64,000 nt of DNA from Platanthera guangdongensis (lineage: Eukaryota > Streptophyta > Magnoliopsida > Asparagales > Orchidaceae): contig CM077162.1 of NCBI GenBank assembly GCA_039583875.1, positions 163,949,826 through 164,013,825 of the forward strand. The letters run 5' to 3'. Shown piece after piece: positions 2,319 through 57,488 of the stretch (its first letter is position 1; every line of letters starts with the position of its first letter). The translations under genes and the position numbers were made by a program. The notes beneath the pieces were generated by a model. That model was not told the DNA's origin and did not search any database. It saw nothing but the letters and a program-made list of their open reading frames with translations.

Positions 2319-3061
2319 ATACAATAAAAATAAAAGGGTTTTCGTCCCCGAAACTTTGCTCGAAGTAGTGGGAAAAAGTAACATACCTGGGGAAAGAGTT
2401 CTGGGTGCTTTTATCGGACGAGTGCTTCAGGTTCCCACGTATACTCATCTTATCCGCAGTTTGACCATAATATTTTTACCATTGGAATGGTCTTGTTATG
2501 CAGGTTCTTCACTTTACGATCTATGATCCCGACTAGTTCGAGTTGAACGGATCTGTCTGACCGCAGTTGTACTGGTGGTGTAGGTAGATGTTGCTCTGGT
2601 TTCCGGAGGACTCGTCTCAAGGAGGAGACATGAAATGCATCATGAAGGTTTCCCAGTTCTAGAGGCAGTGCTAATTGATAGGCAACAGGGCCAACACATT
2701 TTATCACCTGATAGGGGCCCAGGTAGCGGGGATCTAGCTTCTTTTGCTTCCTCAGCCGGGTGACACCATGCATGAGCTTGATTTTTAGGAACACCATCTC
2801 TCCTATGCGGAACTCCACCGGTCGGTGTTGTGCATCATAATATTTGGCTTGTCGGATATGCGCCTCTCGCATCTGTTCCTGGATTAGCCATATTGCCGTC
2901 GTAGTGTCATCAATGTATGCCACTCCTAAGGCTTCTGGGTCCTCTTCCTGTGCCCAAGTCAATGGGGTTCGGCAACTCCTCCCATACAACGCCTCGTATG
3001 GGGACATCTTGATGCTGGCCTGGTAGCTGTTATTGTAAGAAAAGTCAACCAGAGGTAACAA
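2319..3061 (-). pseudogene. G1 integrase C-terminus and chromodomain
   Basis: The 203-residue open stretch (3061 down to 2450) holds the end of the integrase core (MSPYEALYGRSCRTPL), the GPY/F-type module (LDPRYLGPYQVIKCVGPVAY, residues about 110-130, then LHDAFHVSSLR), and a chromodomain start (VGIIDRKVKNLHNKTIPM). A stop follows WSNCG. The frame continues past it as DEYTWEPE, the usual chromodomain motif, so one nonsense codon cuts the chromodomain in half. In chromoviruses this domain directs integration toward marked heterochromatin. The 130 bases from the end of the ORF to the LTR are non-coding. Confidence 0.85.
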
Positions 3062-3932
3062 CTATTCCCACAGCTCATTATGTTCTATTATGCATAGTTG
3101 AAGTAGATCCTCCGTTGTCTGATTTGTTCTTTCTGTCTGTCCATCTGTCTGCGGGTGGAAAGCGATGCTAAAAGCCAGCTTGGTTCCCAAGTATGCCTGC
3201 ACTCTCCTCCACTCCTTAGATGTGAAACGCCTGTCAACGATTTGACACGATGGACTTTGGTACCCCGTGGAAATGGACAACTTGCTCTATGAAAATCCTG
3301 GCCAGAATATCAACACCGTCTCCCTATCGATTTGGAATTAATCGGGCCACTTTTGTGAGTCGATGTACAATAACCCATATGGAGTCATTTCCGGCATGAG
3401 ATTGAGGTAGGCCGTGAACAAAGTCCATGAAAATGTCCTCGAACTTCCATTCGGGTATAGGCAGGGGCTGCATCAGACCTCTCGGGCTGCGACATTCAGC
3501 TTTAACCCTTTGGCAGGTTTGACATTGGGCCACAAAGTTGGCAACGTCCTTTTTCATCCCAGGCCAATAAATGGTCCGGTGCAGGTCCACGTACATTTTA
3601 ACCACACTAGGGTGAATAGAGTATCTTGACAGGTGGGCTTCTTGTAGAATTTCTTCGCGAATTCCTCTGATAGAGGGAATAAATATGCGATGCCTGAATT
3701 GTAGAATTCCGTCGTGTAGATTATAATCCTTCTGCGCTCCATCTGACAGAGATTGAATGATCGGAACCACCTCTAGGTCGATCTTCTGAGATTCTCGTAT
3801 CCGTTCACGGATGTTGCATTGGATCTCCATCCAATACATGTGAGACTTGTATTCTTCCGGATCTCTTAGGGCGATCAGGGTAATTTCTAAGTCTATTAAA
3901 GACTGGAACAGTTCCTTAGGGATTTGCTCCAT
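3062..3932 (-). pseudogene. G1 integrase, N-terminal zinc domain and core
   Basis: Two open pieces (3932-3324 and 3280-3062) make up most of the integrase. The first has the HHCC zinc domain (a His-x5-His pattern in HLSRYSIH, then CQTC) and the core start (IFMDFVHGLPQSH). The catalytic block that normally reads VDRL is VHRL here. The second piece carries the region before the last catalytic Glu (FHPQTDGQTERTNQT). About 45 bases between the pieces contain stops and a shift. Integrase joins the cDNA ends to host DNA; this copy is dead. Confidence 0.88.
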
Positions 3933-3953
3933 CCAACTCCCAGCTATCAGAGG

Positions 3954-4592
3954 CTAGCGACTCAAGCCGTCAGCGAATTTATTAGTTTTTCCAGGGTGAT
4001 ATTGGAGAGCGAAATCATAGTCGCATAGAAATTCCAACCATCGGTGCTGCCAAAGATTCAGCTCTTTTTGAGTGAAGATGTATTTGAGGCTTTTGTGGTC
4101 GGAGAAGATCTCAAATCTTACCCCGTATAAGTAATGCCTATATATTTTAAGGGATAACACGACATCACCCAATTCTAGATCATAAGTTGCGTAATTTAAT
4201 TCATGCGGCTTCAATTGACGAGGTGTGTAGGCAACCACCTTGCCATGCTGCATCAGGACTGCTCCTAATCCTTTCAGGGAGGCAACAATGTAGATCTGGA
4301 ATCCCTCGGTTCCTGTGGGAATCTTAAGGGTTGGCGTAGAGGTTAACCGCTTCTTCAATTCGACGAATGCGGTCTCACATTTCGGTGTCCATCGAAACAT
4401 AACATCCTTTTTGGTGAGGGCAGTTAGGGGTAAAGTAATTTTGGAGAAGCCTTCTACGAACTTCCTATAATATCCGGCAAGACCAAGAAAACTTCGGATA
4501 TTTGCCGCTATCCTGAGTGGTGGCCAATTTTGCACTGCCTGGATCTTGGTCTGATACACTGCTACCCCTTTCTGGTTTATAGTATGGCCCAA
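3954..4592 (-). pseudogene. G1 RT end (thumb/connection) and RNase H
   Basis: The 212-residue stretch starts in the RT connection (FLGLAGYYRKFVEGFSKI, about residues 35-52) and runs through RNase H (FQIYIVASLKGLGAVL, FEIFSDHKSLKYIFTQKELN, and a C-terminal HPGKTNKFADGLSR). The first catalytic Asp, normally in a CDAS-like motif, reads VAS, so the active site is damaged. The later SDHKSL and ADGLSR Asp positions are still visible. It is separated from the upstream RT piece by a stop near 4600. Confidence 0.88.
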
Positions 4593-4601
4593 GAATCCAA
4601 C

Positions 4602-13099: not shown

Positions 13100-14853
13100 T
13101 AGGTTCCTGTTAGCCTGAAATCTGACTTGCCTACCTGCAGAATTTCTGACAGGTAGGCTAACTCTTGCTCTAGACATAAAAGGATTGTGCCAGCAAACTA
13201 GGGAAAAATGCCCACCTTACCACAACACCGACACTGATGAATATTATATTTTCTTTTCTGAGCAGGTCTTGCAGTGTGGTTAACAACTGACTGAATATAA
13301 GGAAGATGAGCAGCAACTTTCTTCAGGTTCCTTTCAGTAAGGATATGACTGAAGGTCATTCTTCCAGCATGCTTCTTTGCTTGCCCTAAATGGTATTCAT
13401 AGTTGTCTTCTTTGCGGAAGGTAACATGTTTATATCATCAGAATAAGCCAAGTTAGGCTTACTGGTAGACTGAACCTTGGTCTGAGTCCTTGCTAGATGG
13501 GCTTGAGTGAAAGCCACTTCCTTTCCCTTATGAGTTGGGGATGAGGCACCAAATATAAATGGTCCAGCATGGACCATTTGTACTTTTTCATGGGGAGCCA
13601 TAAAGGCACCCATTCCCCTACTCTTTCTTCTTCCATTGGAAGATACTCTTGTATACTTACAAACAAGAATTCCCATTCTCCCAGTGACCATGCATGAAGC
13701 CTTGGTCATACCTATGAGAAGTGAGGATTACCTTGTGAAAGGTTGACTGTGGCACTACATGAGCTTTGCCTTTTCCTTTGGAAAGATCAACTCTTGTGCT
13801 TCCCTTGACTACCAACTCCTTCTTACCCTTTTGAGAGGAGAAGGACTCTATCAAGGGCAACACAACTTTAGGCTTGCTGAATTCATACATAGTCCTTCTC
13901 TCCTTTAGGAGTTTCTCTTCAAGATCTAAAATGATCTTATCCTTATGCCTTATGGTCTCAATTTAGATGATTGAGATGGCCTTCAATTGGCAGACTTCCT
14001 TCATTTTCTGATCTAACAAGGATGCTGTCTCAGACTGCTGGGTAGTATCTAGCTAAAGAGAGATAATCTCCTCAGCCTGCATCTTTGCCAACTTCTTACT
14101 TCTTCTCAAAACATCCAAGATTTTACCATACTTGTCAATCAATTGATTGACATCTACCGTAGATTCAGAGTCATCTTCATCCCTGGATGAGTATGCATCA
14201 GAATCTGGACTGGTCACATGACCTGAGCAATAAGAAGAACTTGACAGAAAATGTACCTGATCTTGACCAGGCTAATCCTGGCAGGATTCTTCTTCTTCTA
14301 TCATGGCAATTATCCCATAATAAGTGCAGTTATCTTCTTCTTTATCATCCACCTCTGAATCACTTTCTAATTACGACAGAGGGGCCCTGATCACCATTCT
14401 AGCATCTGGACTATCTTCTCCTACTGCAACAACTTCATTATTGGTAGAAGTAGCAACTAGCCCAATGTTGGCTTCTTCTTCTTCTTCTTCAGACTCTGAA
14501 CCACTATCAGAAAGACTAACTTCCTCTATCCCTTCCATGTAGCCAATGAGACAATCCACATCTCTTTGGATGTCTTGTAGTGGACTACTCTCATGAGGGT
14601 TGAGTCATCTATGACACTTATTATGATATGTTGTGCCCTCTTGTCCATAAATGCCAAGTTGATTTCATCTTCAGACATCTCTGCATAACTCTTTGGGGTA
14701 TGGATGCTTACATCTGATGTAGAGACCCTCATGGTAATGAAGGGTACTTCTTGAATTGAAGCCAATACTCTAGGATCACTGTCTTCCATGATCTGCCTGA
14801 TCCATTCTTTCCATGTCCCAAAGTTCTCCTTGCTGCATACTTGAAGGTCCATT
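13100..14853 (-). pseudogene. S1 gag
   Basis: The N-terminus (14852-14526) reads KENFGTWKEWIRQIMEDSDP and MDKRAQHIIISVIDDSTLM, the UBN2/DUF4219-like Gag start of Sireviruses. An acidic Ser/Glu-rich stretch (14559-14371), a coiled-coil-like part (about 14150-13900) and the pieces at 13890-13657 and 13709-13386 follow. Near 13230 a C-x2-C knuckle (CRCCGK) has lost its His. The frame breaks several times. Gag would form the particle and hold the RNA. Confidence 0.8.
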
Positions 14854-14953
14854 GGGCTTCACTCCTTATGGTTCTCTTTTGAACCCACCAATGGTAACCT
14901 TTTAGCTATCCTTTGAGTTCTACTCAGACTGTTAAGTCCTTTTTGAGTAGCTT

Positions 14954-14966
14954 GGCTCTGATACCA
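14954..14966 (-). other. S1 primer binding site (initiator tRNA-Met)
   Basis: The minus strand reads TGGTATCAGAGCC, an exact match to the plant initiator-Met site, two bases after the LTR end ...TTTCA. Confidence 0.92.
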
Positions 14967-15006
14967 CTTGAAATTCTTTAATTCAAGGATAGCTAAATCA
15001 CCTAGC

Positions 15007-15021
15007 GGGGGGGGGGGGGGG
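15007..15021. repeat. Poly(G)15 / poly(C) run near the LTR end
   Basis: Related LTRs end with a short C-run before CTAGG (S5: 59359-59364). Here it has expanded to 15 bases, probably by slippage. Confidence 0.9.
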
Positions 15022-15279
15022 TGAATAAGTCTTTGAACTTTCTTAGAACTTTTTGTTGTTTACTGATTAAATGTCCTAGAGCTTGTCCTCAATACCTGCA
15101 ATATAAAATAAGAATAAGAAACACATCACAACACACAAGTATTTATAGTGGTTCCCCAATTGGGTACATCCACTTTCCCTCCCACGTATCCAACTATCTT
15201 GTTGGACCATGCGCAAACTCCTCCAAACTTCTCCTAAGAGCTTACACCTCAGATCCCGTAGGATCTCCAAGTCTCCTCT

Positions 15280-15850
15280 AAGACTCACTTCTCAGCCACA
15301 AAGGCCTACACTCAGTGGTTAGCAGACCACTTACCTCAGGATGTTAAACCCTACACTCAGTCTGGGAGGACAGCCTTACCTCAGATCCAGAAGGGATCCT
15401 ACCTCAGAGCTCTGTAGTGCTCCTACACTCAGTGACCCGCAAGCCACCTATCTCAGCCTTATCTCTACAGCCTATAGCTAAGGCTTTTTCATCCCTATAA
15501 CTTCAGGCACAAGGCCCTACTATCAGAGTGCTGCAGCACTCCTACAGCTCAGTACCCCTCCAGGTACCTACCTCAGTGCTCCTCCAGGCACCTACCTCAG
15601 TGCCCCTCCAGGCATCTACAGCTCAGTGACAAACTTGTCACCTACCTCAGGCACAAACTTGTCACCTACCTCAGGCACAAAGGCCCTACACTCCGAGAGC
15701 AGCACTCTCCTACCTCAAGCAATTAAGCCCTATAACTCAGATCCACACATGTATCCTACCTCAGTACCCCAGCAGGGCACCTACAGCTCATTGACTAAAT
15801 AGTCACCTACAACTCAGATTTAGGTAAATTGAATCCTATAGGATGAAGGA
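15280..15850 (-). repeat. U5 array: constant word plus variable mini-hairpins (LTR-a)
   Basis: About 20 units. On the plus strand each is a constant CCTACCTCAG (or CCTACACTCAG, CCTACAGCTCAG) followed by 10-16 bases that pair with themselves. Perfect examples are GTGGT-tagcag-ACCAC (15315-15330), GATCC-agaag-GGATC (15384-15398), GAGTGCTGCAGCACTC (15526-15541), GTGACAA-ac-TTGTCAC (15626-15641) and TGACTA-aa-TAGTCA (15792-15805). The stems differ from unit to unit while the constant word is kept. It lies downstream of the U3 array in the element sense, in what should be transcribed R/U5. Confidence 0.85.
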
Positions 15851-17119
15851 GGGTTGTTGTTTATTCTTGACACAAGAGATATATCTCTAAGTCAAGATTC
15901 TTGACTGAGATAGACTCAATCCAACTATAACTACAGGAATTTATTCCCTGAGTCTCCCTTCACTGAACTAAGATATACTTAGTCCTAACTACTTCCACAG
16001 CAACAAGTAATTACTTGAGCTGGAAGTTACTTGCAAAGGAATTTTCTGCCTCTTCCTGAATTGAGACTGAATCTCAGCCCTAACTACTTCTTCACAGTGC
16101 CAGGGATTTTCCTTCTGGTCAGTGAAGTTACTATAGCTAATTGCTGCTACCTGAGCTGAGAAAATCACAGCTCTAACTTTGCAGATTGGAATAGCTCTAC
16201 CACTTGCTCCTTCCGGGCTGAGGTGATTCAGCCCTAGATTTGACTCCCGAGGAATAGTCCCCTGAGTCATCCTTCAGCTTCTTCAAGCTTTCTTCTCTTC
16301 ACAGCTTCCAAATAAAGACCTTCAGGTGCTTGTGTTGCTGGAACTTTGAAGAGCCTGCAACAAGGGTCGACCCTTAGCTGCTACCTTTTCCCTCAGAGAA
16401 AATACTCTGAACTAGCTTGCTGGTGCAGGTGACAATAACACCAGCTATCTTGCTGTTGAAGGTCTTGATCCAACAACTATCTTTCTCTCTGTCTTGTAGA
16501 CTTGAGCTTCATATTATTTAGCTCCACAACAATGGCGGAGAAGAAGAACTAACTTGATTTATTTTTCCTGAAGTCTCCTTTTCCTTTGTATGCCTCTTTT
16601 CTTTTATTGATTTTGACCCAACGGCTCTTTGAGCAGTTGACCCCACATAATTAATGGCCTACATTAACTTGCTTTAACGCCAACTGCCATACATTAGGTC
16701 TGCGATAACATTTGTCGCATACTGTACCCATCCCAACACTAATTTGAATTTTGTTGACTTATTGACTTGCTAACGTCATCAGCTGTGGACTTAGCCAAAA
16801 ATCAAACACTATTAGCATAGGCGTTGAGTGAATAAGCATCACTCAACGCCAAAACACTTACACAGATTTACTGTCTTATGACATTGAGTGAGTAGCCTTC
16901 ACTCAATGCCAAACTACTTAGAATAAAAAACTATTTCTAGGCGTTGAATGAATCAGCTTCACTCAGCGCCAACTTGCTTATTCAGCTATCTGCTCCTTGG
17001 AGTTGAGTCTGTGAGCATCACTCAACAGCAAACTACTTATACAAGATTCTGTCTTCACTAGGCGCCAACAGCGTTGAGTGAGCAACCTCCACTCAATGCT
17101 TTTTGCCTTAACCATTTTT

Positions 17120-17400
17120 CTGCTTAACTTGTCTCAGCGCTTTCTTATTCTCAGCTGAGACAAAAACTTATCTCAGAGGTTATGCTGAGACTAACTCTTG
17201 TCTCAGTGGTTGTGTTGAGACTAACTCTTGTCCCAGCAATTTTGCTGAGACCAACATTTCTCTCAGCGCTTTTGTGCCGAGACCAACACTTGTCTCAGCG
17301 ATTGTACTGAGACTAACTCCTATCTCAGCGGTTTCTTCTCAGCAGTTTCAATGCTTTCATCTTATCAGCTGAGACTGTCTTCTATCTCAGCGGTTTCTTC
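17120..17400 (-). repeat. CTGAGAC/GTCTCAG hairpin sub-array
   Basis: About seven units, each around 40 bp. A perfect unit is 17185-17206: CTGAGAC, 8-base loop, GTCTCAG. Several loops are followed by CAGCG, again with a CpG. Confidence 0.82.
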
Positions 17401-17534
17401 TCAACGCTTTTGTATTGTGCTTCTCAGCTATCTCGATGCTTTTGCCTTAGGCAAAATATTTCTGCTTCTATAGCACTGAGAGCATTGAGTGTGTCTTCAC
17501 CACTCAATACTTTTTGCCTTATACCAATTTCTGA

Positions 17535-17735
17535 ACTTAGTTAGACTAACTGAACTGCGTTCGACGAATGACAAGCTCAGCTTGATGAACTATGAACTTA
17601 GTTTGACGAATTCTCTAAACTGAGTTCGACGAACTCAGAGTCTCAAACTCTGAACTTAGCTCAACGAATGGTGAGCTCAGCTCGACGAACTCTGAACTCC
17701 GTTAGACGAATTCCTAAACTGAGTTCTACTCACAG
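17535..17735 (-). repeat. TTCGACGAA / CTGAACT word block in LTR-a
   Basis: This block contains repeats such as GCGTTCGACGAA, GAGTTCGACGAACTC and CTCAGCTCGACGAAC. The same core word (TTCGACGA) builds the arrays of C1, G2 and G3. I saw no copy of this block in LTR-b. Confidence 0.8.
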
Positions 17736-18042
17736 CCTTTTGATGTATGACATTGAGTGTGTCTTCATCACTCAACGCCTGTGGACTTAGACATATTTCT
17801 GTCAGCGTACAACATAGGTAAGAATTTACCTGACTTGGCCACGTAGGCTACTTCCTGCCTTTCCAGCATTTTCACTTTGTCACCAACTATCACATCACTT
17901 AGACAACCTGTCTAGACTTGTTCCATGGAACATCCTGCACATGATGAGCTTAAACAACATCAAATACAACTATGCTCTTAGTGTTGATGGAGATGTCTCT
18001 TCAAATCCAATCTAGGGAACATTGTGGGCAATGGACCCAACA

Positions 18043-18345: not shown

Positions 18346-20298
18346 TTTTTAAATTGTTGAACCCAAGAGCACGTAGTTTAATCCGCCAGAACTTTTGGCA
18401 TGCATCAGATTCAGCCCTAACTTTTGCTTCACTGCATCTAAAAGATGTTCTTTGGAACTGTACAGCTGGAACTGTGAATACCTGCAATAAGGGTTTCTCC
18501 CTTTGCTGCAACCTGAGCTGAGTTAAGGTTAGCTCTAACTTCTTTTGAGAAATCTCAGACCTTGCTGGTGCAGATGAAAATATCACCAGCTATCTTGGAT
18601 CGGCTTCAGATCACTTACAGCTAGGTAGGACCTGATGCTCCTTCTTACTCAGAGATTTTCTATGATCCTGTTGTTGAAGGAGTGTATCATAACAGCTATC
18701 CCTTGATGGCTTTCAGATCTGCTGCAGCGTGCCTCAGGCCTTAGCTGCTTCTACTTCCTCAGAGAATATCTCTGATCTTGCTGGTGCAGATGAGAATAAC
18801 ACCAGCTATCTCTTAGAAATCTTAGATCTGAAGTTTGAACTTCTTCTCCAAAGCTCAGCAACAATGGCCGAGGAAGAAGACGAAGTCCAGACCTTTTTCC
18901 CAAATGTTACTTTCTTCAATCTCATCTCTTCTGTTTCTATTCCGCTAATCAACGACTATTTTGACCGGCGAACCCCACTGAAATTGATTACTGCAACTTT
19001 GCTTTTACATTAATTACAGTACTGTAGGCAAGCGGCTACATTTGTCGTGTACTGTAGCTTTACCACAACATATTTGAATTTTGTTGACTTGTTGACTTTG
19101 CTGACTTCACCATCTGTGGACTTAGCCAAAATCAAGCATCATTAGTATAGGAATTGAGTGAGTAAGCTTCACTCAACATCAAAACACTTAGACATATTTC
19201 TATCTATCTCAGGCGTTGAGTAAACAAGCTTCACTAAACGCTTTTGGCCTTAACTAATCATTATGTCACTAGGCATTGAATTAACAACCTTCACTCAACG
19301 CCAAAAAACTTATAAAGTTTTTCTATCTTTAGGCGTTGAGTGAGTAAGCTTCACTCAATGCCAAAACACTTAGATAATCTTTCTGTCTCTAGGCATTGAG
19401 AGCATTGAGTGCACTCAATGCTTTTTGCCTTAGAAATATTCCTGCTTCTCTAGTGTTGAGTGTGGTGAGTATGTCTTCATCACCGAATGCTTTTTGCATT
19501 GGTTAGACTTTCTTTTACTAGGCATTGAGTGAGCCTTCACCACTCAACGCCATATTACTTAGGCAGATTTTGTCACTTGACATTAAGTGAGTATGCTTCA
19601 CTCAACGCCGAACAACTTAACCGATATTCTTCTGTTATCGGGCGTTCTGTGAAATCATAGTTGCTGACTGACTAAGGTTCAGTCAACATTTTTTATCACA
19701 TGGCATTGAGTGAGTAAGCTTCACTCAATGCATGTGGACTTAGTCAAATATCAATACAGATTTTCCAAGGCATTGACTATCTGAGCAATACTCAACGATT
19801 TTGATGCTATGGCGTTGAGTGAATGGACTTCACACAATGCCTGTGAACTTATCCACATATCTGCATGTTTCTCCTTAGGCTTTGACTACCTCAGCCCATT
19901 TCATATCATTTTGTTGTATCGCATTGAGTGAGTAGACTACACTCAATGGTTGTTGACTTAGCCACTTTTTTGTCTAGCTAATAGTTAGGCTTAGACTAAC
20001 CAAGCTATACTCAATGCTTTTACTTACCTGGCGTTGAGTGAATAGACTTCACTCACTCATGTGGACTTAACCGAATTCATGTACCTGGTGTTCAGTGAGC
20101 TTGCTTCACTCAATGTCTGTGGACTTAGGAAAATTCCTACTTGTCCAGCATGTATCTTTATGTCCACTTGTCTAACCATGTTTCAAGGAACATCCTGCAC
20201 ACATTGAACTTGAACTATATCAAATACAATTATGCACTTAGTATTGCTTGGGATGCCTTCTTTAAATCTAGGGAACATTGAGGGCAATATTCCCAACA
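18346..20298 (-). repeat. S2 3' LTR (LTR-b), truncated
   Basis: Right edge: minus-strand TGTTGGGAATATT at 20298, next to a polypurine tract. Matches to LTR-a include the gaattttgttgacttgttgac block (19075 and 16745). The far (U5) end of the LTR, including the variable-hairpin array, is missing. It carries the longest run of U3 hairpins (19148-20118). Confidence 0.82.
19148..20118 (-). repeat. U3 CpG-hairpin array of LTR-b
   Basis: Around 16 units of the GGCGTTGAGTGA / TCACTCAACGCC hairpin at about 60-bp spacing (for example 19332-19362, 19520-19550, 19577-19607, 19700-19729, 20030-20060). Between the units lie short A/T- and pyrimidine-rich spacers, often ending CTTAG or ACTTAG. The CpG at each stem end varies between CG, CA and TG across units. 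Confidence 0.88.
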
Positions 20299-20312
20299 AT
20301 ATCCCCCTATTT
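20299..20312 (-). other. S2 polypurine tract
   Basis: The minus strand reads AAATAGGGGGATAT directly before the LTR start TGTTGGG. C1 has the almost identical AAATAGGGGGAGAT. This is the plus-strand primer of reverse transcription. Confidence 0.88.
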
Positions 20313-23454: not shown

Positions 23455-23905
23455 TTAAGCGTTCGACGAAATCTCTAGGCACTATGCAGAATTTTTGTTC
23501 CTTGCATTCGACGATTTTCGAACTAAGTTCGACGATCGGGCCTTGAGTTTGACGAATTTCGAACAGAATTCGTCGAATGTGTTCTTGCCTTTGTGCTCAA
23601 CGATCTTTGAGAAGATTTTTATTCTTCCTTCTATTCTCAAGAAGCCCTTGCTTGTTCTCGAAAAATGCTTCTCAGTTCTCGGGAATTGTAGCCTTGTTCT
23701 CAAGAACTGCCTTCTTATTCTCGAGAACTGACTTTTCGTACTCGAGAAGTGCTTCTTTGTTCTTGAGATCTGCCTGGTTGTTCTCGAGATGTGCCTAATG
23801 TTCTTGAGAAATCACCTTTCTTTCTCGAGAAATCATTCATTGTACTCAAGAAACCTGCACCCACTTGAGTAATCTATTCCCCCTTTCTTTCTTCTCGAGA
23901 AACCC
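23455..23905 (+). repeat. U3 palindrome array of the G2 LTR
   Basis: The first part has TTCGACGA words (23461-23600). The second has at least 12 copies of TTCTCGAGAA or one-change variants at about 20-40-bp spacing (a perfect one is 23718-23727). Variants replace CG by CA or TG. It lies 490-940 bases into the LTR and directly upstream of the TATA stretch. Confidence 0.85.
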
Positions 23906-31878: not shown

Positions 31879-33184
31879 TGTTGAAACCGAAAATCAGTCT
31901 CATGTGGAGTTCGACCCTTGGGGAAGGGGTGACCGTGCACCTACTACCCTCAAGCGAACGATCTAGGCACAAGACTAGGAACACAAGGTACAGACCCAAG
32001 GTCTCAGCGTGGAGGACCCGCCGCATACCCGGAAGACTAACAAACTCTTCCCCTCCCAAAGCCAAGGGCTGAGCTAAGGCACCTTCAGAGGGCTCTCTTG
32101 GCTGATCGGGACATCTGAGGAGGATCTCAAGATCCACTCCTTAACTAAAGGTGCCACCTCGGGTCTATGTAAAATGTTCCCCGCCCGCCTTACTATTGGC
32201 ACAAAACCGCCCAGCAGCCCTACTCTACGCAGCCCCAATTAGGCCGCTAATGGCGGAACTCCGCTATTCTGAAAGGATGACAACAGGCCATCAGGGGCTT
32301 CCCGACATCTATTCCTCGGGGCCCACATGGGGGGGGGGGGAGTGGTTCACGAACACGCCGATCTCCAAAGACAGGAGTAAACTATATATTCACAGAGCAT
32401 CACAGATATGAAAGAATATTACAGGAATATGAATTCCATACTCAGCACGCAGGCCGGCAATATAAACAAAAAAGGCCTTCGAGGGCCGGCACGAGCTCGG
32501 GCTTAAGCCCGTTATTCCCCGCTTGGTACTGCAATACCTGTACGCCAACGTCTCGGCGAGCAGCGGCCAACTAGGCATCGAGCGGCTAACATAAGCGGGC
32601 CAAACATATTGCGCACACCCCCTTTTTGGGGCTGTGGTGTGCATTCCCTGCAAGCGGCTAAATAAACAACTTCCTCGGAGTCTTCTCCGGGAACCCCAGA
32701 ACATCACCAATCCGGCTCACACGTCCGGATGGGCTTCACACAGCATGCCTAAACCCGTACTCACGCTTCCGGGTACTAATGCAATTAACTGCGGGGACGT
32801 ACACGTCAACCCGTCGAAAAGCTCCCTTCCCCCCCACCCGTTGGTGGAGAGGGGCTTCCATGTGAATGTGTAAACTGAGGGCTTCACCTGCCCAAGTAGA
32901 AACATCGTTACCCTTGTCGCGTGCTTGGCGGCGGGGTCGGGAGAGGATCTCCGGGTCGATCCTATTGCATGCGGCCGCGTCGGTGGTCGATCTATACTCT
33001 AGGCCGAGCCTTTATCTAGGTCGAGCCTCGCTCCATGCCGAGCCTCGCTCCAGGCCGAGCCTTGCTCCAGGCTGAGCCTCGCTGTAGGCCGAGCCTCTCT
33101 CCAGGCTGAACTTGCTGCCAGTGGTGAAAAGCTAGGGCTTAGCTCCAGGCTGAACCCCCACTCCAAGCCGAGCCCTGCTCCAGG

Positions 33185-33640
33185 CCGAGAAAAAGGGAGG
33201 GGGCTGGGGTGTGCTGCTCCAGGACGAGAGAAAGAGGGTGAGAGGCGGGGCTCTACTGTTGGCCGAGAGAGAGAGAGAGGGAGGGGGCGGGGCTCTACTA
33301 TTGGCCGAGAGAGAGAGGGAGGGGGCGGGTCTCTGCTGTTGGCAGAGAGAGAGAGAGAGGAGACGTGGCTCTACTGTTGGCCGAGAGAGAGAGGGAGGGG
33401 GCGGCGGCCACGCTGCTTTGCCGGCGACGGGAGAGAGCGGGGAAGGAGGCCGTGCCCTAGCCTGGGCGGTGGCCGGAGAGAGAGAGGGGGCGGGCGGCGG
33501 CTCCAGGCCGAGAGAGATAGAGAGAGAGGACTGGGTTGTCCTCTTCCAGCCGACGAGAGAGAGAGAGGGAGGGGGCGGGGGTGCCGTGCTCCAGCCGACG
33601 AGAGAGAGGGAGAGGGAGGAGATGGAGCTCTCGTGTTCCA
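33185..33640. repeat. GA-rich minisatellite, left LTR
   Basis: Units of about 50 bp with GGCCGAGAGAGAGAG plus GGAGGGGGCGGGGCTCT. The counterpart in the right LTR is 37525-37970. Confidence 0.88.
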
Positions 33641-33794
33641 GGCCGAACCCTAGTCCCGGAAAAAATCCATGCTGCCTCTCTCTTTTTTATCTCCCTCTCA
33701 GTTTTCTTTTTCCACTTTTTCCCCCGCTGTACCCCCCTACCCGCCTCCTCAAATCCCCGCCCCTCCTCCTTTTTCTTATCACATATATCTCTAA

Positions 33795-33850
33795 TATATA
33801 TATAATATATTATATATATTATAATATAATATATAATATATATATATAAA
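33795..33850. repeat. AT-rich TATAAT microsatellite, left LTR
   Basis: An alternating TA/TATAAT tract near the LTR end. The right LTR has a longer version (38122-38203), the main length difference between the LTRs. Confidence 0.9.
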
Positions 33851-34289
33851 TCATAAACCTATGCGCATAAAACCTCCGCACGCACGCACGAGGACCCGCA
33901 CGTCTCCGAACGGGGTCGCACCAACTCGTCGCACAAAACACGCCCCTAGGCTGATATTTGGGGAGGGTCCCACTCGCCCGGCTACAGGGTTGTACACAAT
34001 CCCCGCTCTTTTCGAGCTTGGCACAAGATCGGAAAGAATCATCCAACCCAACGTATCCGTCGAGTGGGAGCCGACCCAAAAAACTTTTTGAGAGAAACTG
34101 AAATCTGCGCTTGGAGCATCAATCTCTCCATGACCTTTCTGAACCTTTTGAATCACTCGATACCCTTTGGCTCACTACTGTTGAATTGCTCTTATACCAT
34201 TACTTACAACGAGTCTATAATTTCTCGTGATATCGTGAAACAACAAAGCCGTATTTTCTGTATCCTCTTGTACACGCTGAGCTATTCCT

Positions 34290-35155
34290 TTCCCCCCAGG
34301 TGTGCCTATAGCTCTGCCAGCTAGTGAGATCCTGACAGCGAGTCTACCCGGGGCTGAGCAGTACTCGGGGTCCCTTACCCCCCAGGCGAGCCTACGGACC
34401 TGCCAGCTAGTAGGAGCCAGGTAGCGGGTCTACCCGGGGCCGAGCATCACTCGGGGTCCTGCGAAAAGTCTCCACAAACCAACCCTTTCCCCCCAGGTGT
34501 GCCTACAGCCCTGCCAGCTAATGAGAGTCTGACAACGAATCTACCCGGGGTCCACTACTACCGCCATCGAGTGACTTCCGGCCCTGCCAGCTAGGTGAGA
34601 GCCTGACAGCGGGATCTGCTCGAGGCCTACGGATGACACCGAGTGACTTCCGGCCCTGCCAGCTAGGTGAGAGCCTGACAACGGGATCTGCTCGGGGTCC
34701 ACTACTACCGCCATCGAGTGACTTCCGGCCCTGCCAGCTAGGTGAGAGACTGAGAGCGGGATCTGCTCGAGGCCCACGGATGACACCGAGTGACTTTCGG
34801 CCCTGCCAGCTAGGTGGGAGCCTGACAGCGGGATCTACTTGGGGTCCACTATTACCTCCATCGAGTGACTTCCGGCCCTGCCAGCTAGGTGAGATCCTGA
34901 CAGCGGGATCTGCTCGAGGCCCACGGATGACACCGAGTGACTTCCAGCCCTGCCAGCTAGGTGAGAGCCTGACAGCGGGATCTGCTCGGGGTCCACTACT
35001 AATGCCATCGAGTGACTTTCGGCCCTGCCAACTAGGTGAGAGCCTAACAGCGGGATCTGCTCGAGGCCCACAGATGACAACGAGTGACTTCCGGCCCTGC
35101 CAGCTAGGTGAGAGCCTGACAGCGAGATCTGCTCGGGGTCCACTACTACTCGAGG
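34290..35155. repeat. 72/75-bp dimeric tandem repeat in the LARD interior
   Basis: Eight tight units start at 34568, 34640, 34715, 34787, 34862, 34934, 35009 and 35081. They alternate between 72 bp (ending GGCCCACGGATGACAC) and 75 bp (ending GGTCCACTACTACCGCCAT), so the true period is 147 bp. More diverged units extend left to about 34290. All share CGAGTGACTTCCGGCCCTGC. Because both lengths divide by three, frames stay open on both strands (+ 34633-35313, - 35182-34835), giving repetitive ORFs with no known domain. Confidence 0.92.
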
Positions 35156-36224: not shown

Positions 36225-38349
36225 TGTTGAAACCGAAAATCGGTCTCATGTGGAGTTCGACCCTTGGGGAAGGGGTGACCGCGCACCTACTACCCTCAAG
36301 CGAACGATCTAGACACAAGAATAGGAACGCAAGGGACAGACCCAAGGTCTCAGCGTGGAGGACCCGCTGCATACTCAGAAGACTAACAAACTCTTCCCCT
36401 CCCAAAGCCAAGGGCTGAGCTAAGGCACCTTCGGAGGGCTCTCTTGGCCGACCGGGACATCTGAGGAGGATCTCAAGATCCACTCCTTAACTAAAGGTGC
36501 CACCTCGGGTCTATGTAAAATGTTCCCCGCCCGCCTTACTATTGACACAAAACCGCCCAGCAACCCTACTCTATGCAGCCCCAATTGGGCCGCTAACGGC
36601 GGAACTCCGCTATTCTGAAAGGATGACAACATGCAATCAGGAGGTTACCGACATCTATTCCTCGGGGCCCACACGGGGGGAGCGGTTCACGAACATGCCG
36701 CTCGCCCAAGACAGCAGTAAACTACATATTCATAAGCATCACAGATATGAAAGAATATTACAGGAATATGAATTCCATACTCAGCACGTAGGCCGAAAAT
36801 ATAAACAAAAAGGCCTTCGAGGGCCGGCACGAGCTCGGTCTTAAGCCCGCTATTCCCCGCTTGGTACTGCAACACCTGTACACCAACGTCTCGGCGAGCG
36901 GCGGCCAACTAGGCATCGGGCAGCTAACATAAGCGGGCCAAACATATTGCACACACCCCCTTTTTGGGGCTATGGTGCGCATTCCCTGCAAGCGGCTAAA
37001 TAAACAACTTCCTCGGAGTCTTCTCCGGGAACCATAGAACATCACCAATCCGGCTCACACATCCGGATGGGCTTCACACAGCATGCCTAAACCCGTACTC
37101 ACGCTTCCGGGTACTAATGCAATTAACTGCGGGGACGTACACGTCAATCCGTCGGAAAGCTCCCTTCCCCCCACCCATTGGTGGAGAGGGGCTTCCACGC
37201 GAATGTGTAAACTGAGGGCTCCACTTGCCCAAGTAGAAACATAATTACCCTTGTCGCATGCTTAGCGGCGGGGCCGAGAGAGGAGCTCCGGGTCGATCCT
37301 ACTGCATGCGGCCACGTCGGTGGTCGATCTCAACTCTAGGCCGAGCCTTACTCCAGGTCAAGCCTCGCTCCATGCCGAGCCTCGCTCCAGGCCGAGCCTC
37401 GCTCCAAGCAGAGCCTCGCTGCAGGTTGAGCCTCGCTCCAGGCCGAGCTTGCTGCCGGTGGTGAAACGTTAGGGCTTAGCTCTAGGCCGAACCCCCACTC
37501 CAAGCCGAGCCCTGCTCCAGGCCGAGAAAAAGGGAGGGGGCCGGGGTGTGCTGCTCCAGGCCGAGAGAAAGAGGGAGAGAGGAGGGGCTCTACTGTTGGC
37601 CAAGAGAGAGAGAGGGAGGGGGCGGGGCTCTGCTGTTGGCCGAGAGAGAGAGGGAGGGGGCGGGGCTCTGCTGTTGGCAGAGAGAGAGAGAGAGGAGACG
37701 GGGCTCTGCTGTTGGCCGAGAGAGAGAGGTAGGGGGCGGAGGCCGCGCTGCTTTGTCGGCGACGGGAGAGAGCGTGGAAGGAGGCTGTGCCCTAGCCTGG
37801 GCGGTGGCCGTAGAGAGAGAGGGGGCGGGCGGCGGCTCTAGGCCGAGAGAGATAGAGAGAGAGAGGACTGGGTTGTCCTCTTCCAGCCGACGAGAGAGAG
37901 AGGGAGGGGGCAGTGGTGCCGTGCTCCAGCCGACGAGAGAGAGAGAGAGGAGATGGGGCTCTCGTGTTCCAGGCCAAACCTAGTCCCGAAAAAAATCCCT
38001 GATGCCTCTCTCTTTTTTATCTCCCTTTCCTTTTTCTTTTTCCACTTTTTCCCCTGTTGTACCCCCCTACCCGCCTCCTCAAATCCCTGCCCCTCCTCCT
38101 TTTTCTTATCACATATATCTCTAATATATATATATATAATATATTATATATAATATATATAATATAATATAATATAATATAATATAATATATATATATAT
38201 AAGTCATAAACCTATGATCATAAAACCTCTGCACGCACGCACGAGGACCCGCACGTCTCCGAACGGCGTCGCACCAACTCGTCGCCCAAAACACGCCCCA
38301 AGGCTGATATTTGGGGAGGGTCCCACTCGCCCGGCTACGGGGTTGTACA
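36225..38349. repeat. LARD right LTR
   Basis: This is a direct copy of 31879-33996 with the same order of sub-repeats. Differences are mostly transitions plus repeat-length changes in the GA and TA tracts. It ends GGTTGTACA, followed by GACAC (38350-38354). Confidence 0.9.
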
Positions 38350-39282: not shown

Positions 39283-40847
39283 TGTTGGAACACCCTATTA
39301 CTGATTTGGGCAAGGATCACTATGTCTCTTAGGAAACCTGTCTTGACCTCATTGTATAGATCTAAAGGTCAATTAGAATTGAGTCTAAGGGTTAGTATTT
39401 AGGTTTGGAAGCTTCCCTCAAGACCAGAGATTTCAGTTCAGGAGACTAAGTCATTTCGTCGAGCTCAGTACGACAAATCGTCAAACTCCATTCGACGATC
39501 GTTGAGCTCACTTCGACGAATCGTCGAACTCCATTCGACGATCTTTGAGCTCAACTTTAACGAGTTGTCGAACACCATTCGACGATCTTCGAGCTCAGAT
39601 CGACGTTCTTGACTCCAGTTTGATTCTCTATCTCTGAGCTCAGTTTGACGATAGTTGAGCTCAGATCGACGATCTCTGTTTCAATCTAAGTCCAGTCTCT
39701 GAGCTCAGTTCAACGATAGTGGAGCTCAGTTCGACATTTTTCTGAAGAGTTAAACGTTTTTCAAGATTCAAATTCAGACAGTTATGGAATTATTCTCAGC
39801 ATTTATGTCAGAGATCCTGTAGCTGTTTTTAATTAATCTAGAGCAAGTTTCAAGGAATTTTCAAAGGAATGTTTTATTGGACTTTCCCTCAGAAGACAAA
39901 ATGCAGTTAAGGAAGTCATTTATGACAGGAAAACGACTATCTTGGACAGAGGATCATTTCTATTCAGATCAAAGGAATAAAAGATTTATTATTATTCAAC
40001 AACAACAACTTCTGCAACAACAATTCTCTGCAACAACAAGAATTACAACTCTTACAACAACAATCACACAAGAGAAAGAAAAAGAGTTGCAGATATTCTC
40101 AGTCTCAAAAATTCATACAAGAACACCATCACAAAAAAAGGAGATCAACATACTGAAATTTTCAGATCTCTCTTGATTCAAGTGTTCAAAGGCCATCATC
40201 ATTCAAGACTCCAGACACCTCACATTTCAGCTGTTGCTGAAATCATCTTTTGCTGGAGATCAAATCATCTGAAGGCCTATCACCATACTGCAAAGCTTCA
40301 CTTCCTGAACAACTCAAGATCTCAAGGGGAGCTTTGACAACATCCACTATCTTCTCTCTGACTGTTGACAGAGAAGATCATCTCATCCCTTTCTCTCTCT
40401 CTCTCTGCTGTAAAGGGTTTTTCAAACTCCCTTCAAAAGTTTGTGATTGGTTTCTGAGACCTTATCAAAACTCAGTGGTGGCAAGACACCTGATCAAAAA
40501 ATCTGGTTTGGTTTTTGAGCACCTTATCAAAAGCTCATTGGTGCCCAGGACACCTGATCAACTCATCCTGCAGTGGATTCCTACCTAGGGTGTTAGAAGA
40601 GTGGATGTACCTAGATTGATTGGGGAACCACTATAGCTCCTTGTGTCATCTGGTTGCTTGTCTTTCTTTTGTTTCTGGTTGTGGTTTGTGATTGCCTTGT
40701 AATTAGATAGTTGCTGTGTTTGTTTACTTTATTTCATTTGATGCCCTGTTCACTTAGGAATACAACAACAGTTGTAAAAAGTTTTTAGCAAGCACCATAC
40801 TCTATTCACCCCCCTCTAGAGTATATCAGATCTAACTTGCACTTTCA
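39283..40847 (+). repeat. C1 3' LTR, 1565 bp
   Basis: It starts TGTTGGAACACC and ends ACTTGCACTTTCA after the C-run TTCACCCCCCTCTAG, which is typical of Sirevirus LTR ends. U3 has a TCGACGA hairpin array (39440-39740). A later part (40440-40570) repeats CCTTATCAAAA/CCTGATCAA words with small hairpins such as GGTG-cccagga-CACC. A run of CAACAA words lies at 39995-40065. Confidence 0.85.
39440..39740 (+). repeat. U3 TCGACGA hairpin array of the C1 LTR
   Basis: About a dozen GAGCTCAnTTCGACGA words in both orientations. A perfect hairpin is 39521-39541: TCGTCGAA, 5-base loop, TTCGACGA. Decayed copies replace CG by CA or TG. Confidence 0.86.
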
Positions 40848-49660: not shown

Positions 49661-51045
49661 TGAAAGATTATTAATGGTAGTTTAAATCACCTAGGGGGTG
49701 AATATATGGTCTTGCAATATTTTGTCTCTATTTTGATTTCAACAAGAATAAGCAGAAGTAAAACACACGTAACCACACAAAACACAACATAAAGATGTTT
49801 ATAGTGGTTCCCTGGGGTATGGGTACATCCACTATCCCTCTATGCTTATCTAGTAGTCTGCTAGACTCAAAAAACTTCTCCAAAACTCGGCTCCAAGAGC
49901 TTACAACATAGATTTCTCAAAATCTCTTAGGTCTACTCCAAGACCAAACATCAGGCTCAACAAACCTGCCTTAGGATCAATAGCCCCATAACTCAGAGTA
50001 TTTCAACTCCTACAGCTCAGAGAACCAGCTAGTCTCCTACCTCACATGGAGATCCTACTTTAGGCACAACAACCCTACCTCAGACAATAACCCTACCTCA
50101 AGAAACTGCCCTACAACTCAGATCTTTCATTAAACCCTACAGATGGAAGTTTGTAAATGACTACAACTAAAGACTCTATAAAATGGACCTTAATGTTTCT
50201 GAGTCTTAAGTTGTCTTTGCTGTGAAAGCAATCTCCTTGAAGCAGCCCCTGATTTGAGAAAGTATTCAGGTAGAGTAGATTTTTGGCTCTTCTTCTTGAT
50301 CTTCTTCTCCAGGAAGAAGACCTAACTGGAGTTGTGAAGCTTGAATCCTCCTTGCTCCATATTAATCATTTCATAGAAAGCTTGTTCAGTAAAGACAAAT
50401 TACACTGTCTCTGGTTTTTAATGATTCAGCAGGATTGAGCAAAGGTTCTATTCAATTGCCCTAACTTTTCCTTTTTTATCCTCATTATTTTTCAACGGTT
50501 GAACGATTAGAAAATGTCCAGTCAAGGTGTGGGCAAGAATGGAATGATCTGACAGGGCTTTATTTGCCACCGCCAAATTTGAAATCCCGCCAATCGTGCT
50601 CAACGGTAACAATTATCCATTCAAACCGATATTGTGTTGAAAATACTTCTTTAAAAATGAATCCTTCCTTCAACATTAAAATCCACCTCTTTTGTGACTT
50701 CTCAGTGATAGTGTCATGAAGCATTCCACGATCAAGTCGATATCGTGGAGAAAAATATACCGATCTCAATGGTATTTTCCTTTAGTGTTGGATCTTGCCA
50801 CTTCTGATGCTTTGGGATGATACTGCCTTGAAACACTCCTTGTTCAAGACGATAATGTCGAGAACACTTCAACTTTTTGAATGATATTACTCCATTTGCA
50901 CTTACACTTCTATAAACCTATTTTAGATACAACAAGTATTTACTATATAGATAACAAAACAAATATACCAACAAATACAATATGCACTTATCATTGCAAG
51001 AGATGCTCTTCAATTCCTAGAATATTATGGGCAATATTCCCAACA
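49661..51045 (-). repeat. S3 5' LTR, 1385 bp
   Basis: On the minus strand it starts TGTTGGGAATATTGCCC at 51045 and ends ...CTTTCA at 49661. It carries a U5 variable-hairpin array (49850-50165). U3 has scattered pairs such as CAACGGTTGAAC and TCGATATCG, but no long array. It is the shortest LTR of the S group. Confidence 0.85.
49850..50165 (-). repeat. U5 variable-hairpin array of the S3 LTR
   Basis: Perfect stems include AGATTT-ctca-AAATCT (49910-49925) and GGTCT-actcca-AGACC (49930-49945). Constant words CCTACCTCA, CCTACAGCTCAG and CCTACAACTCAG separate them. The stem sequences are not those of S1 or S5. Confidence 0.82.
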
Positions 51046-54073: not shown

Positions 54074-55017
54074 TGAAAGAATAAGGGATGTCTAATCACC
54101 TAGAGGGGATATGTGTTTGGAGTTTTTGATCTTTTTATGATTTTAAGGTTTAACTACCATAGAAAATCAAACACAAATCACAACACAGGAAAATACACAG
54201 AGATTTTATAGTGGTTTCCCAGATTATTAGTACATCTGCTTCCCCTCCACCTATTTAGCATTGTATTATGCTCTTCCAACTTCTTGAATAACTTAGATCA
54301 AAGATCTTACAACTCAGAGTCCTTGATTCCTACAACTTAGGAACACAACAGGTCCCCTACCTTAGATCCACTTCTTGGATCCTACCTCAGGTGCACAATA
54401 GGAACCCTACCTCAGAGTGACACCACTCATACAACTCAGATTCACAAATGAATCCTACCTCAAGCCTTCACAAGAACCTACCTTAGGCTTTAACAAAGCC
54501 CCACACTCAGGCCTTCAACATAACCCTACACTTAGGCTGTCAACACAACCCTACCCATAGATCTCAAAGAGATCTTACACCAGTAGAATTGAATGAGTTT
54601 GTTATGGAAATTTAGACTCAATAAAGATATTATTTTGATGGTTGAGTCTTCTTAGGCTTTTTAGTGAAAAAGCCTTCTTCAGAAACAACACCTGATCAAC
54701 AATAGAATTGTCTTGATAGCAGGATCAATGTTGAACTTCCTTATGAGTTGAAGTCTTCTTGCTCTCTAGAATGAGAGCTTTCTTTGTTCTTAAAGTTTTA
54801 ACTTCTTCTTCTTCTTCAGAATGCTTTCTTTACTGTTGTATTGCTTGTTGACGGCCGATAAGCTCAGCTTTCTAAGTTCACAAGGTTCTATAAGGTTACG
54901 GTTTAATGACCCTCTCTTCTTCTTTTATATCTCTGATAACCTTAATGGTTGAAACATCTGAGAAATCGTATCAAGTCTATATCTTGAAGAGATTGATTTG
55001 ACACTGACTTATGACAC
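54074..55017 (-). repeat. S4 5' LTR, truncated
   Basis: The left end ...CTTTCA at 54074 follows the primer site. The U3 side is cut at 55017, where a gypsy LTR ends. It contains the U5 variable-hairpin array (54270-54585). Confidence 0.8.
54270..54585 (-). repeat. U5 variable-hairpin array of the S4 LTR
   Basis: Perfect stems: GATTC-acaaat-GAATC (54439-54454), GGCTTT-aac-AAAGCC (54486-54500), GATCTC-aaa-GAGATC (54560-54574), plus GATCC-acttctt-GGATC near 54366. Constant words are CCTACCTCAG, CCTACCTTAG and CATACAACTCAG. Confidence 0.85.
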
Positions 55018-57488
55018 TGTCACAACAAGGTGGGGGACAACTACAAACACTCAGACAAGGACAAACTTCTTATCAACTTTATAAAAGACATGTATTTTTA
55101 TGGTTCAAAATGCTATTTGAGTTTAAGGTTCAAGACCATGTCCCTCAGTTTAATAGATCAACTACCACAGATAATAAAAATATAATTGCAGTAAAAAACC
55201 TCTATTTTACCACATTCATTTATACTAGGTGAACGTGAAAACCCAACAAACATGATAATGTGTGCAGTTTCTAAATTTAGTATAAGTAAAAGAAAGGAGT
55301 TTTATATCCATTAAAGTAGGTTGATATAAAGTTAAAAAGATCTATAAGTATGAGTTAAAAATGAATATTTATTTATGTATAAAATAACTTACATGCATCC
55401 TATCATAAATATCCCAAGAGGAAAATACTTCATTGAATAAAATTCTAGTAGTTGCAGAGACGACAGAACAACAGTCTAAAACACAAAAAAATCGTGTTAT
55501 GGGCGCCAACAAACTAACACGAACCCATAACACTTACAACAAAAGTCTGAACTTCTAACACCAAGCAAGAAAAAGGAACCAACCACTCCTTATCTTGGAG
55601 AGGGAGGGAGGAAAAGCCGAAGAAGACTGGTCCATCAACTTGGTCAGCTCTACCTACTATCTACCTGAACCTGAGGCATTTAAAATAAAGAATGCCTCAA
55701 CACAAGAGTGCAAAAGATGACTTAAACATAATTCAAATGGTTTAAATAAGATAAGTGGGTTAACAACCCCACTGAAAAGCTACAAAACCATAGAAGTCAA
55801 TAACATAAGAGAAAGAGAAATGATTAGCTTGGCACAAAGCGGCCATATAAGGAGAAGATTTGCACCAAGTGCAGAAAGGACTCTTTGTGATGTCCTAATA
55901 ATAAATATATATATAACCATAGAAATATCATTGATTAGCTTAAAAAGTGAATCATCCGCGCCATACATAAAATGGTACTGAGGTGGTGGATATTTTTCCA
56001 ACACAAACCATCAGACCAACACAACCAAAGAAACATGCACTGAGGCGGTGGTCCTTTATCCACAACTAACTAAAAAAACCAAATAATAAAGCCACCGAGC
56101 GTAATGATTCACAACAGGCACTAAGGTGGTGGTCATTTATCCACTTCCAACCCAAGTCCAAAATCATAAAGTCGTCAGGCGTGATGGTGACACTAAGGTG
56201 GTGGTCCTTTATCCAATATCAACCAAAGTTCCAATAATAAATCCAAATACAATAATAAATGGGAATAAAAGACCCAAGACTTAGCATCAGATTATCACGG
56301 TGACATAAGGAAAGAAAATCCAGAAATTTCTAAGGGTATACTCAATGAATTTACAGTTCACTTGATGAATTCTGCTAGACTACACGACAACACTCGTTGA
56401 ATCCACCGTTCACTTGCCGAATTCTACTTGGTCTCACGAGTTCACTCGACGAATTCTACTAGACTTTACGAGTACACTCGATGAATTCTACTTGACCAAG
56501 TATGCAAATTACTCGTGAACACTCGACGAATTCGGCTCGGCCTCACGAGTTCTCTCGACGAACTCGGCTAGGCTTCACGAGAATACTTGACAAATCCACT
56601 GTTCACTCAACAAATTCTACTAGACTTCACGAGAACACTCAACGGATCCACTATTTACACAAAAAATTCTACTCGATCTCACAAGTTCACCCGACGAATT
56701 CTGCTAGGTCTCTCAAGTTCACTCGACGAATTATACTAGACTTCATGAGAACACTCAACAAACTTTACTTGACCAACTTAGCTAACTACACGGGAACATT
56801 CGATGAATTCGGCTCGACCTCACGATATTACAAGACTAATTCGGCTAGACTTCACAAGAACACTCAACAAATTCTACTTGAAAAACTCAGCTAACTACAT
56901 AGGAATATTCGACGAATTCGGCTCGACCTCACGATATCACTCAATAAATTTGGCTAGACTTCACGAGAACACTTGATGAATTCGGCTTGGCCTCTCGTGA
57001 ACACTCGACAAATTCTACTTATCCTCTCGATGAATCCTACTTAGATTACATGAGAATACTCGACAAATTTTACATGACTTCTCGAGAGCAGTAGACGAAT
57101 CTGCATAGATCGAATTTTGCAAATCTCCAAATCCAAAATTATGAACACCAAGAAGACAAAACATGTTCCTCTTGGATCTTAACAAGGAAGAAGAGGAAGA
57201 GAGAATAACATTAACAACAAAGCAAGAGGCATAAACTATGAATTGCCACAATTCTTTAAATTTATGGCTTCCTTAGCACACCACGCCATAGATCGGCGAC
57301 AAGAAACTCCTAAAAAGAAAATTCTGAAAGATTTGGGGCACAAATGAGGGTTAGGGCTACTCGCTACAACCCCAAAAATCCATGAAATCAAAAATACTCA
57401 CCGCGCACTCGAAGATCTCAGAGAGAGCAGTCCGAATCTCTACTCTGATGATGATTTCCTGCACTCTAGCTCCAATAACGGTGGGCGG
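55018..57488 (-). repeat. G3: gypsy LTR fragment with a CTCGACGAATTC array
   Basis: The left end (minus strand ...GTTGTGACA at 55018) matches the G2 LTR end, and 55018-55700 matches the G2 LTR (about 25230-25941) in inverted orientation. No primer site lies to the left, so it may be a solo LTR. The right end is hidden by S5. The part 57120-57488, with GTGCGCGGTGAGTATT and a CT-rich stretch, resembles a leader and sits before the array in the element sense, which I cannot explain. No coding region: the plus ORF 56502-56894 is the repeat. Confidence 0.65.
56330..57110 (-). repeat. CpG-word array in the G3 LTR
   Basis: More than 20 copies of ACTCGACGAATTCTACT/GGCT alternate with TCACGAGT/CACGAGAAC words. 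A perfect inverted pair is ACTCGTGA (56511-56518) with TCACGAGT (56543-56550). The core CGACGAA is the word of C1 and G2. Decay is again CG to CA or TG. Confidence 0.85.

Follow-up and report, generated by a model that had tools for sequence, protein, structure and literature searches.

We found that an LTR on the minus strand of a 64,000-nucleotide stretch of the Platanthera guangdongensis genome (the whole stretch that we analysed, hereafter the window) carries a tandem array in which a nearly constant word alternates with self-pairing inserts that differ from one another. Each unit of this array is a hairpin whose foot (GG...CT) scarcely varies, whose stem covaries and whose loop is free. 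The array makes up the promoter-proximal part of a palindrome-rich U3 cis-region in which the palindromes differ and the pairing is kept, and selection on pairing of some kind has probably been at work.

A word search that allowed up to one substitution located 23 copies of CTGAG(N0-3)NTAGG at 15241-15817, the minus-strand reading of CCTA..CTCAG, six of which are exact copies of CTGAGGTAGG. Separating the words are 21 self-pairing inserts that differ from one another and measure 9-18 nt; a longer one lies near the array's 3' end, and a 17-nt hairpin insert at approximately 15818-15834 opens the array. The 21 inserts offer 80 outer positions, and 61 of these form Watson-Crick pairs, compared with a mean of 20.2 (SD 3.8, maximum 35) in 5000 within-insert shuffles. 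The initial annotation of this DNA had described a constant word with differing self-pairing inserts, and had named equally good pairing of shuffled inserts as the result that would speak against it; the 23 words and the paired positions bear the description out, and the shuffled inserts do not pair equally well. Folded as a whole, the window array is only moderately more stable than its shuffles (z -2.85 sense, -1.38 antisense). Each unit reads 5'-GG, variable arm, loop, matching arm, CT-3', and a linker, GAG-x-GTA, joins one unit to the next. We define the foot as the two bases that flank a hairpin at either end (GG and CT). Its second pair joins G with T; this pair varies little from unit to unit and is a wobble in the sense strand. 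Because the ends of the word can close the hairpins, with a G-C pair and, in the sense strand, a G.U pair, the word is more than a spacer. A CRISPR-like repeat-spacer array was considered and rejected: the spacers of such arrays are acquired from foreign DNA, whereas the inserts here pair with themselves, and related copies have inherited them in one and the same order. The array and the landmarks around it are, in window coordinates:

14526..14858, minus strand: ORF weakly matching copia gag (PF14223; E 7e-4; 19.5 bits, below the curated cut-off of 27)
14955..14968, minus strand: 5' LTR/internal junction, AGTGG spacer plus PBS TATCAGAGC; a Sirevirus junction as given in the accessible part of PMC2829016
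14969..18042, minus strand: LTR with the array, ~3.07 kb, TGTTGGG...TTTCA, both ends read from the sequence
15007..15021, minus strand: polyC tract near the LTR 3' end, like a Sirevirus integrase signal (from sequence and the accessible part of PMC2829016)
15142..15148, minus strand: TATA-like box CTATAAA, 93 bp past the last word in element sense
15241..15835, minus strand: the array, words alternating with hairpin inserts (word search, up to one substitution)
16818..17760, minus strand: near-constant palindrome arrays farther into U3 (from sequence)

Judged by these sequence features, the element is a Sirevirus-type LTR retrotransposon on the minus strand. Its junction, CA/AGTGG/TATCAGAGC, matches the Sirevirus junction as the accessible part of PMC2829016 defines it (CA/ATTGG or CA/AGTGG, then TATCAGAGC). 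This junction, the polyC tract and CTATAAA fit features described there and, with the weak copia gag match, agree with the earlier call of a Sirevirus-like LTR. The strict 9-mer junction and two variants of it were found at 2 of 74 loci, namely the window and one locus where the match lies at an unrelated place. Copies with an internal side (L011, L013, L015, L054 and L066 among them) read CA/AGTGG/TATCAGAG, their last base being G and not C. Among 32 copies inspected, the LTR end TTTCA was found again in many, runs of at least six C in 15, and shorter tracts in several more; the window tract stops 38 bp short of the end of the LTR, and the mean published for Sirevirus polyC tracts is 21 bp (PMC2829016, accessible part). 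No copia reverse transcriptase was found in the 17 ORFs scanned, a subset of the window ORFs. Self-comparison of the window returned no second copy of the whole LTR, only patches in a neighbouring related LTR. The latter, at ~18400-20300 on the minus strand, ends at ~20300 with AGGGGGAT-AT/TG, which resembles a PPT and differs from the octamer by a single base; the Sirevirus criterion is AGGGGGAG followed by AT/TG at the 3' LTR, with several PPTs. Ty3-type pol pieces at 2450-4601 on the minus strand (RNase H, integrase zinc-binding and Tf2-like SH3) apparently belong to another element.

The placement of the array within the LTR bears on what it could do. TATAAA or TATATA lies no more than 300 bp after the array in 70 of the 78 loci with sufficient flank, the window included, at a median of 94 bp. 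Since the TATA-like box is downstream of the array in element sense, the array lies in U3 and not in R/U5, where it had originally been put. From the U3 placement it follows that the array would be present once per element RNA, near the 3' end and not in the 5' leader, and the earlier suggestions of 5'-leader and strand-transfer roles lose their basis. The downstream flank is common to 83 of 93 loci as one homology group (overlapping loci counted).

Farther upstream in the same LTR, the arrays at 16818-17760 consist of 60-nt units around TTGAGTGA/TCACTCAA and 30-nt units around CTGAGAC/GTCTCAG. Near-constant palindrome arrays of ~60-nt and ~30-nt units also occur at 19148-20080 in the neighbouring related LTR, and in both places the arms seem to alternate between CGTTGAG/CTCAACG and CATTGAG/CTCAATG. 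Elsewhere in the window, word-plus-hairpin stretches lie at 58892-59090 on the plus strand and at 50000-50140 and 54320-54530 on the minus strand; because their inserts differ, these three apparently represent other families. Other tandem arrays, several of them palindromic and with different motifs, were seen at 23652-23831, 39456-39735, 56408-57015 and 57954-58119, and a tandem repeat with 72/147-bp units at 34508-35149. A 2.1-kb block containing 17-nt and 38-nt tandem repeats is present twice at 92% identity (31879-33996 and 36225-38349).

The same units recur across the 4.25-Gb genome, the whole of which underlies the genome-wide counts. The exact pattern of word-N13-word occurs 2860 times and the backwards pattern 0 times. 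At 90 further loci in this genome we counted 1265 units with 689 distinct inserts. In the 546 distinct inserts of at least 11 nt, 1719 of the 2184 outer-four positions are paired, as against 797 ± 21 when 3' arms were exchanged among inserts of equal length. Chance pairing is ruled out by the shuffles in the window together with the swapped arms at the 90 loci. Perfect 4-bp stems at these loci are of 37 different kinds. Related copies carry mostly the same hairpins in the same order, and distant families carry other sets. The arms are tightly linked: with the flanking words fixed, matched units number 3207 (ATCC/GGAT) and 1962 (AACC/GGTT) genome-wide, against 38 (AACC/GGAT) and 29 (ATCC/GGTT) mismatched units, where independent arms would give, from the four totals, ~1230-1240 in each mismatched class. 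The odds ratio for arm linkage in these units is ~5700. Several different loops occur in AACC units among the matches listed (the first 100 places), which suggests that these units have more than one origin. L005 (overlapping L004), L037 (overlapping L003) and L039 (a 101-base stretch) were excluded, and some counts also leave out L014, which shares 98.4% identity with L013, or L009, the locus of the window.

Covariation was assessed in family A, which comprises 60 of the 89 arrays with at least eight words, each spanning no less than 60% of the array in the window. The alignment of family A was built without reference to structure, and the tree was derived from that same alignment; the subfamily sets among the 60 copies are A1 (22), A2 (16) and A3 (8). 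A compensated change was present in at least three copies at 14 of 107 stem pairs, compared with 3.9 ± 1.7 pairs (maximum 11 in 200 runs) under a tree-based null with independent columns, and with 2 to 7 pairs when the partner was slid by one or two columns. Paired cells made up 85.4% of this alignment versus 76.2 ± 1.4% under the null. A looser count of compensated changes in any copy was not significant (31 against 25.5 ± 3.2, maximum 34). The initial annotation had read the inserts as covarying, a claim sustained by the excess of compensated changes over the tree-based null and by the genome-wide linkage of the arms.

We found that paired changes are unevenly distributed in time. Changes ending in a Watson-Crick pair account for 28 of 62 on branches with at least three descendants versus 63 of 573 on tips (P 4e-10). 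This contrast was gone in the slid control at +1 (17/60 versus 153/568 on tips) and weaker at -1 (30/84 versus 139/626). Two-sided changes from one Watson-Crick pair to another make up 6 of the 62 changes on the shared branches, and tips show some as well (12 of 573). Between A1 and A2, 20 of 96 stem pairs differ, nine of them by two-sided Watson-Crick to Watson-Crick change. Two LTR pairs of single insertions, L015/L023 and L010/L011, were recognized by their spacing along the contig (12.2 and 6.9 kb), by being ~88% identical across 2.45 kb and by a PBS on one side only. Here 34 stem pairs have changed, none by two-sided Watson-Crick to Watson-Crick change and two by two-sided mismatch changes (9/20 versus 0/34, Fisher P 3e-5). 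Both insertions are old, as their LTRs are only ~88% identical, and in both the stems simply decayed after insertion. Changes on one arm only in other copies had been named in advance as evidence against a kept fold; subfamilies do change both arms, but many one-armed changes exist too, mostly recent. From the tree, subfamily and LTR-pair contrasts together, we conclude that paired change occurs mainly in transposing lineages and not during decay. This fits selection, but it is also compatible with a mutational process during reverse transcription.

We next consider where the unit is under constraint. Relative to tip changes, shared changes are fewest in the foot (ratio 0.060), and the ratio rises through word core (0.173), stem (0.221) and word middle (0.296) to loop (0.332). 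For G/C sites the ratio of the foot is lower than that of the word core (P 0.001); for A/T sites it is not (P 0.8). The word core in turn is below the loop on shared branches (P 7e-4), and the stem differs from the loop overall (P 0.01), a contrast that loses significance within base classes (P 0.07 for G/C, 0.42 for A/T).

Wobbles offer a view of which strand pairs. On tips, new G.U and A.C wobbles are equally frequent (121 and 123), so mutation looks symmetric. One-sided wobbles fixed between subfamilies are G.U at six of six distinct sites (P 0.03 versus tips), two of which fall at pair 5, for which base composition by itself would give 85% G.U. Across 35 insert types there are 11 G.U wobbles and 0 A.C, six of the 11 at the composition-favoured pair 5, and branches with at least three descendants carry seven changes from Watson-Crick to G.U and four to A.C. 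Genome-wide G.U:A.C counts for two units are 429:295 and 698:462; related copies are included, so P values from these counts would overstate the case. A third unit gave 136 G.U, one side of the comparison only. The wobble evidence, from a small sample, leans towards pairing in the sense single strand. RNA folding gives a different picture. For arrays of 15 or more words (the first 48 of 65), the mean pairing probability of unit stems is 0.47 in the antisense versus 0.35 in the sense strand, with sense ahead in 5 of 48 (0.30 and 0.17 in the window copy), which weakens the earlier expectation that the element RNA would carry a row of stem-loops. This antisense advantage probably reflects competition from the G-rich words of the sense strand. 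Over short range, the two strands fold equally strongly in the 44 arrays computed, the first of 66 (z -4.43 in sense and -4.30 in antisense, with sense the lower in 23 of 44).

Several explanations could account for these observations, and we rank pairing in the sense RNA ahead of a DNA-level enhancer, a by-product of template switching and an interface with host silencing, in that order. Sense-RNA pairing itself we place somewhat below an even chance. An enhancer, in which the words would be putative host-activator sites and the palindromes dyad or cruciform-prone DNA spacers near the TATA, is possible but doubtful. The array does sit upstream of the TATA-like box in those 70 of 78 loci at a median of 94 bp, as RM boxes do in the accessible part of PMC2829016, although the constant distance may only be shared descent, given the flank shared by 83 of 93 loci. 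The word core changes less than the loops (0.173 versus 0.332, P 7e-4), and short-range folding that is equally good on both strands speaks for action as DNA. In the antisense strand, CCTACC/ACCTAC resembles an AC-element or H-box; ACCTAC is the preferred target of AtMYB61 and the H-box is CCTACC(N)7CT, according to the accessible parts of PMC3669277 and PMC6135729. However, ACCTAC is found in 371 of 1521 words, and because CCTACC is present in only 585 of them, the AC-element or H-box is not the constant part; as a constant feature it was rejected, and it survives only within the enhancer explanation. The length of the word middle also varies between units, DNA symmetry predicts no lean of G.U over A.C, and 37 different stems are hard to square with a single dyad-binding factor.

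A mutational by-product would arise if, in reverse transcription or in replication, template switching within quasi-palindromes used one arm as the template for the other, with no selection for pairing; this strikes us as less likely than not, yet it is a strong rival. Six of the nine two-sided changes between A1 and A2 are impossible via G.U (five are flips, T-A to A-T for example, and the sixth is C-G to A-T), one unit has three pairs changed between these subfamilies, and template switching is known to create and repair hairpins (PMC8794818, accessible part). Its mark of loop inversion is almost missing here, as only 3 twins were found in 191 inserts, all in one unit type. We set this aside as unconvincing evidence of template switching, and it counts mildly against the process since such inversion is rare in the accessible part of PMC8794818 too. 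Template switching would also leave unpredicted the conserved foot, the word core and the G.U lean, and mismatches and wobbles persist across subfamilies (A1 and A2 share three G.U pairs and four mismatches). That two LTR pairs have no two-sided Watson-Crick to Watson-Crick change after insertion argues against it as well, but says nothing on the reverse-transcription step. Far less probable than any of these is an interface with host silencing, in which the palindromes would be templates of hairpin-derived small RNAs and their diversity an escape from cross-matching small RNAs. Palindrome regions of maize Sireviruses are highly variable small-RNA hotspots (accessible parts of PMC5311732 and PMC10760457), and units most often repeat with a 24-nt period (414 of 1450); yet periods of 20-26 nt are all common, every stem is short, and escape alone should favour loss of pairing.

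That selection acts on the pairing and that the hairpins act in the sense single strand are jointly a little less probable than an even chance, in line with the rank given to sense-RNA pairing. The hairpin shape would then be useful to the active element, and selection in every round of transposition would maintain it. The hairpins would most likely act in the sense strand, within U3, which makes up the 3' portion of the genomic RNA; there, Gag of the element or a host RNA-binding protein may read the foot and linker and tolerate any stem. Differing stems may also prevent recombination or small-RNA sharing among neighbouring repeats, and template-switch mutation may be the source of the paired changes. 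The fullest version of this account, a tandem RNA-structure array of approximately twenty hairpins with shared foot and linker and their own evolving stems, read by shape in the 3' U3 RNA, we put forward tentatively and regard as rather unlikely to hold in every part. If it did, the roles would be packaging, localisation or translation, and the element would retain a multivalent protein-binding scaffold with little repeated sequence beyond the linkers.

Compared with known systems, the constant word with different covarying palindromes looks like a new form of the palindrome-rich Sirevirus LTR. The tobacco Tto1 LTR reportedly contains a 13-bp cis-element bound by MYB. The resemblance of the array to that element, and to the AC-element and H-box, would lie in the antisense word, which by its sequence has CCTAC, sometimes CCTACC or ACCTAC, in an LTR promoter region; the difference is that CCTACC is confined to 585 of 1521 words. 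With template-switch hairpins (Monttinen and Loytynoja 2022; PMC8794818, accessible part), the array shares paired changes and multi-pair jumps in stems, but loop inversion, rare there, is nearly absent here. Closer are the RM boxes of Bousios et al. 2010, which the accessible part of PMC2829016 describes as clusters of palindromes in Sirevirus LTRs upstream of the TATA, with 8-32 copies per element; one palindrome is repeated in each element at 66.5-100% identity, and 12 of 13 have a CGG-CCG core. The window array likewise has many palindromes in U3 upstream of the TATA, and the upstream arrays at 16818-17760 do repeat near-constant palindromes. In the array itself, however, neighbouring palindromes differ, none of the 37 perfect 4-bp stems counted over all loci has CGG/CCG, and what stays constant is the linker word together with the foot. 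The LTR is also longer, at 3.07 kb compared with 0.54-1.68 kb in the table of that source. The maize Sirevirus cis-region of Bousios et al. 2016, as quoted in the accessible parts of PMC5311732 and PMC10760457, is similar in its clusters of variable hairpin-forming palindromes in an LTR regulatory region. The motif quoted there, CACCGGACNNNGTCCGGTG, is a shared palindrome, whereas a constant word and covarying stems are found here. In titles and abstracts from the open-access literature, outside which most subscription journals fall, we found no report of a near-constant foot and linker with different covarying stems. With a single repeated palindrome, whether letters or fold are kept is a hard question to pose; one LTR with approximately twenty inserts and thousands of genomic units makes covariation, strand bias and post-insertion decay separable. 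The family thus offers a natural test of selection on pairing versus template-switch mutation in LTR cis-regions.
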